DNA from: an uncultured Methanomicrobiales archaeon
Lineage (GTDB): Archaea; Halobacteriota; Methanomicrobia; Methanomicrobiales; Methanospirillaceae
Direction of reading: 5' to 3'
Assembly: GCA_903926075.1 (NCBI GenBank)
Contig: CAIYHQ010000020.1
Span: 1-48,730, forward strand
Length of the DNA stretch: 48,730 nt
The notes under the pieces were generated by a model that saw nothing but the letters and a program-made list of their open reading frames with translations, did not search any database and was not told the DNA's origin. Positions 20,816 through 22,570 of this stretch are shown in pieces. The position numbers were made by a program, and so were the translations under genes. Within the stretch, counting starts at the first letter, position 1. Every line of letters begins with the position of its first letter.

Positions 20816-21100
20816 TTATTTTGTTTTTTTACAGATGAAATTTTTACAGGTAACAGGTCTTGAAGCATAAATTGTACAGATTTCTTCTTCTTTCTCATTT
20901 TTTCTCAGAAATACGCATGCTCCGGGTATGGTTTCAGAAAGAAAGAGTTGCTTCATATTGCGCTCTAAATACGCATTAAAATTGCTTTTTGAAAGGATAT
21001 CATTACAAAGAAATTCTGTTTGACCTTTATGTCGCACTATTTTTATGTAGGGCCCCAGGCTTCTGCAGCATTTTCCACAGAATGTACATTCATCTGTCAA
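20816..21100 (-). CDS. YkgJ-family cysteine cluster protein
   Basis: This 94-residue protein shows the UPF0153/YkgJ pattern: CTFCGKCC at the N-terminus, ACVFL, then CTIYASRPVTCKNFIC. These eight or so Cys likely bind zinc or an iron-sulfur cluster. The function of the family is not established. It overlaps the truA stop region by 11 bp and follows it on the same strand. Confidence 0.8.
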   Translation of the reverse strand: MTDECTFCGKCCRSLGPYIKIVRHKGQTEFLCNDILSKSNFNAYLERNMKQLFLSETIPGACVFLRKNEKEEEICTIYASRPVTCKNFICKKTK

Positions 21101-21893
21101 TTGGGACCTCGTCCGGTGTCCCGAAAAGCACTGAACTTACGGCTCTCTGCCACATGATACAGCCTTCGCGCTGGTACTGCTTACCTTTTGTCTGATAGAC
21201 CGGAGTAAACCCGACTCCGCACTCAACATGGGAGAGGACCAGCCCTTCTGCGGATGCAGGGTCTATAGGTTCACTACCTGGCAAAAGAAGTCTGTCACGG
21301 ATGCTTTCGGGTTTACGCAAATCCCCCCCGATTTCATATAGGGCCTGTGCAATGCAGCGTACCATCCGCCAAAGAAAACTTTTCGCGGTTATCGTAAGTA
21401 CAGGATATCCATTCTCCCTGCTGACCACTGCAGAGATAACATTTCTCACAGGGTTTTTCCCGTCCAGCTTTGCAAATGATGAAAAGTCGTGCTCACCGCA
21501 GAAATAGCGGGCTCCCTCCTGCATTAAATTAATGTCAAGGTCACACCTCCCGAAATAATACTGGTATGTACGTGATATGGCAGCAAATCTCGGGTTAAAG
21601 TCAACACCTACTTCATCACAGCCTGTTATCCAGCAATCGAGAGGGAGAAGAGGATTTAGTCCCTTTTTCGCCCTTTCCGGGTCATCGGTCGTGAAAGCAA
21701 AGATCTGCCCAAGGGCGTGAACGCCGCTGTCTGTCCTCCCGGCCATTCCAAAACCTGCTTCTTTTCCGTTAGAGAATAGGTTCAGGGTGATGCATGACTT
21801 CAGGACCTCCCCTTCAACTGTCCTTGCATCTGGCTGGTATTGTGAGCCCGAGAAGCCGGACCCAATGTAGCAAAGTCTGAATGCAAGCCTTAC
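21090..21893 (-). CDS. truA: tRNA pseudouridine synthase A with apparent GTA start
   Basis: The protein modifies uridines 38-40 of the anticodon arm. The catalytic Asp lies in AGRTDSGVHALG, followed by FNPRFAAISRTYQYYF. No ATG/GTG/TTG precedes the conserved N-terminus RLAFRLCYIGSGFSGSQYQ in frame; the first Met is at 21746, inside the catalytic core. A GTA codon (21891-21893) directly before RLAF overlaps the PHP stop TAA and lies 7 nt after GGTGA (21901-21905). Starting there gives 267 residues, the usual size. A single G-to-A change in an ancestral GTGA overlap would explain this. An upstream CTG (in PHP) is another possible start. Confidence 0.8.
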   Translation of the reverse strand, partial: VRLAFRLCYIGSGFSGSQYQPDARTVEGEVLKSCITLNLFSNGKEAGFGMAGRTDSGVHALGQIFAFTTDDPERAKKGLNPLLPLDCWITGCDEVGVDFNPRFAAISRTYQYYFGRCDLDINLMQEGARYFCGEHDFSSFAKLDGKNPVRNVISAVVSRENGYPVLTITAKSFLWRMVRCIAQALYEIGGDLRKPESIRDRLLLPGSEPIDPASAEGLVLSHVECGVGFTPVYQTKGKQYQREGCIMWQRAVSSVLFGTPDEVPIDR

Positions 21894-22570
21894 CGTCGAA
21901 TCACCTTTTTTTTCACCCTCTTCCAGCTGCTCCTTACAGACTGGCGGGTATAGGATTTGACTGGAGTTTTTCTGCCTCCGGCCTCAGTTTTCCCATCCCT
22001 TATTGCCTGAAGTATGCTGCCTGTATCCGGCTCTGAATCTATGTGGGTCCAGCCAAAGCCCAGAAATTTAGTTTCATGCGCGTCACTCCCGCCAGTACAC
22101 GGCTTTCCGAGAATTTTTGCTCCTTTCTTTGCTTTTTTATTCGCAGAACCTATAATGTATCGGCTGTTGAAAATCTCAATTGCGTCAACTGCCCTAAACG
22201 CATCTCTCCAGTTGACACCTTTCCGGACTGCGACACCATGGCGCATCATATGAAACGGATGCGGAAGTATTGCCACGCCGCCCAGTTCATGCACTGTTGC
22301 AACAGTCTCAAAAAAATCTTTTCCTTTTGGAATTACTTCACTAACACCAAGGATAATAAGATGGCCTTCATGTGTTGTGACTTCAATACCCGGGATTATA
22401 ATGAGATCTGTCCTGAAACTTTCTGCTTCAACAACGCCGCTGATGGTATCATGATCTGTTATTGCAATAGCATCAAGTCCAAGATATTCTGCCCTTTTTA
22501 TCATCTCAAGAACGCTACTCGTCCCGTCCCGCGAATGGTTGGTATGGACATGGAGGTCACAGGTTAGCAT
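21890..22570 (-). CDS. PHP-domain phosphoesterase
   Basis: The 226-residue protein opens TCDLHVHTNHSRDG, the first metal motif of PHP enzymes, then AITDHDTISG, IPGIEVTTHEGH, LPHPFH and GGSDAHE. These motifs form the trinuclear metal site. The type resembles RNase AM/nucleoside 3',5'-bisphosphate phosphatases, but substrate is not assigned. The ATG at 22570 is 6 nt after GTGAT; 22576 is possible. It ends in a basic tail (SWKRVKKKVIRR). Its stop overlaps the truA start region. Confidence 0.85.
   Translation of the reverse strand: MLTCDLHVHTNHSRDGTSSVLEMIKRAEYLGLDAIAITDHDTISGVVEAESFRTDLIIIPGIEVTTHEGHLIILGVSEVIPKGKDFFETVATVHELGGVAILPHPFHMMRHGVAVRKGVNWRDAFRAVDAIEIFNSRYIIGSANKKAKKGAKILGKPCTGGSDAHETKFLGFGWTHIDSEPDTGSILQAIRDGKTEAGGRKTPVKSYTRQSVRSSWKRVKKKVIRR

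Follow-up and report, generated by a model that had tools for sequence, protein, structure and literature searches.

Where does translation of truA begin in this genome, when no ATG, GTG or TTG precedes the conserved N-terminus of its product? The window, a stretch of 48,730 nucleotides from an uncultured Methanomicrobiales archaeon, carries truA on the minus strand, downstream of and overlapping a gene for a PHP metallohydrolase (Table 1). As originally predicted, the truA frame holds no ATG, GTG or TTG from 21983 down to the ATG at 21746. This ATG encodes residue 50 (Met50), counted from the valine at 21893 (V1) with which the conserved protein begins; the protein runs from V1 to the stop at 21092–21090 and comprises 267 residues. 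A mechanical ORF call puts the start at 21746, as had been expected of automated annotation, which would shorten TruA by 49 residues. Such a long lead is uncommon: of 348 long ORFs (from 477 kb of this genome), the first canonical start is preceded by at least 45 codons in 14, and in truA by 79.

Judged by alignment, the stretch ahead of Met50 is conserved protein. All 96 listed matches to TruA of relatives (39–56% identity) begin their alignment at residue 1 or 2. Met50 lies five residues ahead of the Asp in AGRTDSG, within the sequence AGRTDSGVHA (residues 51–60). This is a GRTDxGVHA-type motif, which we take to be the one that holds the TruA catalytic Asp. Given this conservation of residues 1–49, a translation start ahead of Met50 is expected. 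The protein scores 160.1 bits against the whole-protein model TIGR00071 (hisT_truA; cut-off 142.85) and also exceeds the cut-off of PF01416; a second TruA model, NF000622, remained under its cut-off (116 versus 308). It thus resembles TruA, the tRNA pseudouridine(38–40) synthase, as a full-length conserved protein that passes the cut-offs of both TIGR00071 and PF01416, and differs in that no ATG, GTG or TTG precedes its conserved N-terminus. The absence of canonical starts and the conservation of the protein are both observed here. The gene is probably intact and has lost its canonical starts, with sequencing error still a rival explanation.

Table 1 Features of the truA–PHP junction (positions in the window).
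Feature	Position	Strand	Remark
PHP / CehA-McbA-like metallohydrolase gene	21890..22570	-	Start read by us as ATG 22570; stop TAA 21892-21890
truA open frame, stop to stop	21090..21983	-	ORF reading; TIGR00071 and PF01416 matches
AAGGAG ahead of S1	21930..21935	-	3 nt from CTG, a poor spacing; also PHP coding
CTG at site S1, 11 codons ahead of V1	21924..21926	-	Homologous to relatives' ATG
A-AAA-AAG heptamer in PHP frame	21905..21911	-	Within A8 run 21913-21906
AGGTGAT, 7-nt exact Shine-Dalgarno match ahead of S2	21900..21906	-	Longest exact match in 150 loci
ACG codon directly ahead of V1	21894..21896	-	Likeliest start candidate; SD spacing 8
GTA at site S2, the old start position	21891..21893	-	Start candidate of the original prediction; encodes valine in 48 family relatives
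First canonical in-frame ATG (Met50)	21744..21746	-	Start here would drop the conserved N-terminus

The original prediction had placed the start at the GTA that encodes V1, and its coordinates were borne out: this codon lies 7 nt after GGTGA (21905–21901) and overlaps the PHP stop TAA. Between the upstream stop and V1, the in-frame codons one base off ATG are AGG (−28), ATC (−21), AAG (−14), CTG (−11) and ACG (−1). The PHP frame is intact across the overlap and reads Trp, ten residues and stop, the same as in relatives with an 11-codon spacing, so no indel is evident. The TG of the CTG is part of the PHP Trp codon TGG, and both AGGTGAT and ACG are also PHP coding sequence (KKKVIRR). Translationally coupled overlapping gene pairs with ATGA or GTGA junctions (PMC10666635) resemble the present locus, where the stop of PHP and the old start of truA overlap; the differences are that the junction here is GTAA, that ACG lies ahead of it and that a canonical start codon is absent.

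The locus was set against 149 further truA loci from its order, of which 95 belong to the same family and 54 to five other families. The family comprises 108 genomes, 95 of which have truA; 96 of 97 matches were used, including the locus studied here, and a second truA fragment (G031:C68) was left out. Outside the family, 54 of 116 matching genomes were examined, made up of the 14 best matches and 40 that we selected from a range of families. Where the alignment started one codon late, as in five loci of the family and five of families f2–f5, the position was shifted by one codon.

Two sites recur in these loci. The first, S2, is the position of the GTA. Among the 96 family loci, including this one, it reads GTA in 49, ATG in 22, GTG in 20, CTG in 3 and ATA in 2. 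The PHP stop begins one base into the S2 codon in all 96 family loci and in 48 of the 54 loci of other families; in the remaining six, PHP ends 2 bases, or 5 to 40 bases, ahead of S2. The identity of the PHP stop codon (TGA or TAA) determines whether the old start of truA is possible. The second site, S1, lies 10–15 codons upstream of S2. In all 96 family loci its codon takes its TG from TGG, a Trp codon of PHP; it reads ATG in 81, CTG in 10 and GTG in 5. A canonical codon is present in each of the 149 other loci, either at one of the two sites or in frame upstream. This genome alone combines CTG with GTA.

The two sites vary together. ATG occupies S1 in all 53 family relatives that lack a start at S2, versus 28 of the 42 that have one (Fisher p 2.6e-6, indicative only since relatives are not independent), and in one of these 28 (L042) S1 is blocked by an in-frame stop. 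Conversely, S2 is a canonical start in all 14 other family loci whose S1 is not ATG. The first base of S1 is also read in PHP, as the third position of a codon (ACA or TCA where S1 is ATG), so that selection acting on the start of truA is the best explanation for its constancy in relatives without an S2 start.

In families f2–f5, S2 is ATG in 41 of 45 loci and GTG in the other four, with GTA in none; five of these starts lie one codon ahead of the aligned place. This use of S2 implies that TruA works without the upstream extension. In family f6, two of nine loci have GTA at S2, both with ATG 13 codons upstream. From this distribution S2 looks like the older start site and S1 like a later gain, and GTA at S2 looks like a remnant left after S1 took over and the PHP stop was TAA. 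Relatives of the gene pair thus show a start site on the move, from S2 only, through S1 and S2 together, to S1 only, and this genome has neither.

These comparisons bear on the proposal that one G-to-A change, which would turn truA's GTG into GTA and the PHP stop TGA into TAA, had removed the truA start. GTA does sit at the old start position (ATG or GTG at S2 in 45 of 45 f2–f5 loci), and swaps between GTGA and GTAA look frequent at the junction, given the spread of S2 codons in the family (GTA 49, ATG 22, GTG 20, other 5). Comparison with the 149 loci of the order thus upheld the position and the junction, but GTA itself proved ordinary there, and the idea that a single change at S2 removed the start found no support: the 48 family relatives with GTA at S2 all have ATG at S1, and the two f6 loci likewise have an upstream ATG. 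GTA at S2 would usually be a plain valine codon set by the PHP stop. Unique to this genome is the additional loss of S1.

A tree of truA and PHP (98 loci) groups this genome with genera g3 and g13 (support 0.9), both of which have ATG at S1, and puts its TruA/PHP on a long branch. Thermosome and concatenated trees, built from the 30 best thermosome matches only and with g3, g12, g13 and g15 absent, place it beside g5 (0.873) or g6 (0.18) and nest it, with partly weak support, among lineages with ATG at S1. Among the thermosome matches listed, identity is 90% to g16, 89% to g6, g4 and g2, 87–89% to g17, 85–88% to most other genera, 85–87% (one 77%) to g13, 85% to g3 and g12 and 83–84% to g15. 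Under either placement, loss of the ATG at S1 would be the simplest unique event. Against this, the PHP codon at S1 is AGC in this genome, which is a single step away from ACC (a CTG state) but two steps away from ACA. Given also the frequent variation of S2 and the long lineage of this genome, the lineage may instead never have had ATG at S1, with S2 changing from GTG to GTA as originally proposed.

We next asked whether the codons that remain are accompanied by a Shine-Dalgarno (SD) sequence. SD matches were scored against a generic anti-SD and not one from the host's own 16S rRNA, for which a search found no archaeal match in this 97%-complete assembly (G000). For calibration we used 174 unambiguous ORF starts in 477,404 bases of the same genome, of which 37 have an SD match of at least 5 nt to this anti-SD. 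Spacings of 6–12 nt account for 28 of the 37 (control, about 6), with a peak at 8–9 nt (14 of 37; control, about 0.8 and 0.9). AGGTGAT stands 8 nt from ACG, the commonest spacing in the genome, and 11 nt from GTA, a spacing found in 3 of the 37 (control, 1.0). A putative SD at the usual spacing is thus found before a near-cognate codon. Exact 7-nt matches are rare, occurring in 2 of the 174 start regions and 6 of 1,740 internal 25-mers. Among the 150 loci, this one alone has such a match within 22 nt of S2, followed by four loci with 5 nt. This locus is also the only one of the 150 with ACG directly ahead of S2. By pairing energy at S2 it ranks second of 96 (−10.2 kcal/mol), behind a locus (L084; −12.0 kcal/mol) that has ATG at S1.

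The reading we prefer, to which we give a little less than an even chance, is non-canonical initiation beside the PHP stop, at ACG before GTA. Ribosomes ending PHP, or 30S subunits recruited by AGGTGAT, would initiate next to the stop at a near-cognate codon, most likely ACG and less likely GTA, yielding a product that would begin Met-Val-Arg-Leu-Ala or Met-Arg-Leu-Ala and resemble TruA of the lineages that start at S2. GTA is a possible start, but not the best candidate: it is two positions off AUG, and its distance from the SD core is 11 nt, versus 8 nt for ACG. The longest SD match occurs in the sole genome without either start, which suggests that the SD compensates for the lost starts; the argument is made post hoc from one genome, the SD and the ACG having been spotted only afterwards. 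We infer both the codon used and any coupling to PHP from these features. The fuller claim is put forward tentatively: having lost both ancestral start codons, a housekeeping gene of an archaeon would use ACG (or GTA), which lies outside the set of start codons accepted for archaea, with a new 7-nt SD compensating beside the upstream stop; if true, it would offer a clear natural example of a lost start codon offset by a strong SD.

In line with such compensation, according to the accessible part of one survey, GUG and UUG starts are tied to stronger SD sequences, but in Archaea the effect is significant only for UUG, and individual start-codon switches show no significant link to SD changes (PMC5622118). 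Efficient re-initiation at native overlaps is described for Haloferax volcanii in the available text of another study (PMC10666635). Near-cognate starts known from prokaryotes (CUG, AUU and others, in the accessible sections of PMC5622118 and PMC11456600) are alike in that CTG and ACG here are one base off AUG near an SD-like sequence; the difference is that the portions of the literature on ACG and CUG starts in archaea that were available contain no direct precedent, and no archaeal housekeeping gene started at ACG or GTA.

The strongest competitor is initiation at the CTG of S1, inherited from an ATG that changed to CTG, with ACG and GTA as ordinary internal codons. TruA would then carry an 11-residue extension (M-EEGEKKGDST) and have the N-terminus (M)EEGEKKGDSTVR. 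The CTG aligns with the relatives' ATG at an identical 11-codon distance, and the invariant ATG at S1 in relatives without an S2 start, like the nesting of this genome among S1-ATG lineages in the partly weakly supported thermosome and concatenated trees, points the same way. CTG is a near-cognate codon and is better regarded as a start codon than ACG or GTA; in E. coli, ACG and GTA are reportedly weaker starts than CUG. AAGGAG gives the strongest pairing energy at S1 among the 96 loci (with the generic anti-SD), but at 3 nt it is too close to the CTG, a spacing seen in none of the 37 own-genome matches. The CTG also falls in a predicted hairpin stem, whose fold is no stronger than that of shuffled sequences (z 0.44). 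In addition, a decayed S1 is usually accompanied by a working S2, as in the 14 other family loci whose S1 is not ATG. In the available part of a Ribo-seq study of Methanosarcina mazei, about 5% of starts among unannotated small ORFs are CTG, which supports CTG initiation in archaea (PMC11456600), but switches from AUG to CUG are rare, at 2 of 61,358 in the accessible part of the survey (PMC5622118). On balance, we regard a start at CTG as less likely than initiation beside the PHP stop.

A sequencing or consensus error, with a canonical codon at S1 or S2 in the real cells, seems improbable to us. A single wrong base at either site would suffice, the bases rest on one assembly of 134 contigs, and the closest truA relative is 53% identical, with no near genome confirming them. 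In the sampled 15% of the genome, two other genes likewise have no start in frame and seem to differ in length by 1 nt. In truA, however, the differences are substitutions, PHP remains intact and the window is tiled by long ORFs. When ORFs of two other genomes (G095 and G073) were compared with this one, the 83 query–contig hits yielded one flagged frameshift-like case, which we read as the antisense shadow of a neighbouring gene. An ortholog screen for start-less genes was noisy since antisense frames align as well, and known cases had partly guided the choice of G073 stretches; we draw no rate from it.

That truA is a dying gene whose translation has ceased is highly improbable: the missing canonical start and the long branch of TruA/PHP would fit decay, but the frame keeps 267 codons without a stop, passes the TIGR00071 cut-off and is the sole truA match in a genome whose family has truA in 58 of 59 good genomes. 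The least probable explanation is a PHP–TruA fusion made by programmed −1 frameshifting, or A8 slippage, at A-AAA-AAG near the end of PHP; the heptamer is in the right phase, a −1 shift leads exactly into the truA frame, and there is an archaeal precedent in fucA1 (A-AAA-AAT in a 40-base overlap, in the available part of PMC8211752), which is alike in having an A-AAA-AAN heptamer in a gene overlap in the correct phase, but here two unrelated enzymes would be joined, structure downstream is not beyond chance (z 0.26) and the site is not conserved, since an A run of at least 7 in the 45 nt ahead of S2 occurs in none of the 95 other family loci and in 2 of 54 other-family loci, there at a different position and with ATG at S2, and none of the 150 loci has a fused frame, every PHP stop falling no later than S2+1.

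Several other genes with odd starts were seen. In the same genome, a CxxCxxCC-domain gene (L123:462-1160, minus strand) has no ATG, GTG or TTG ahead of its conserved Cys motif. A GTG lies in frame at least four codons ahead of a conserved Ser in 17 of 20 loci, L123 among the 20, which led us to reject an ATT start common to these relatives; in L123 the GTG is out of frame and ATT precedes the Ser, with AGGAAGTGA, one mismatch from an SD, ahead of it. In many of the 19 relatives shown, a conserved gene with no Pfam match (L138:17670-18194, plus strand, same genome) overlaps the gene ahead of it and starts within an ATGA; here the junction is GTTTAA, with no canonical start and, by our reading, a net 1-nt length difference. 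Also in this genome, a PAS/His-kinase ORF (L130:1271-2773) starts inside PAS-like sequence directly after a stop, with its first canonical start at codon 78, and may be a broken gene. In genome G095, a gene presumably encoding the GTP cyclohydrolase MptA (L189:9404-10378; 78% identity to a G073 protein) lacks a canonical start in frame ahead of its conserved part, and the ATG that is present is offset from the frame by one base.
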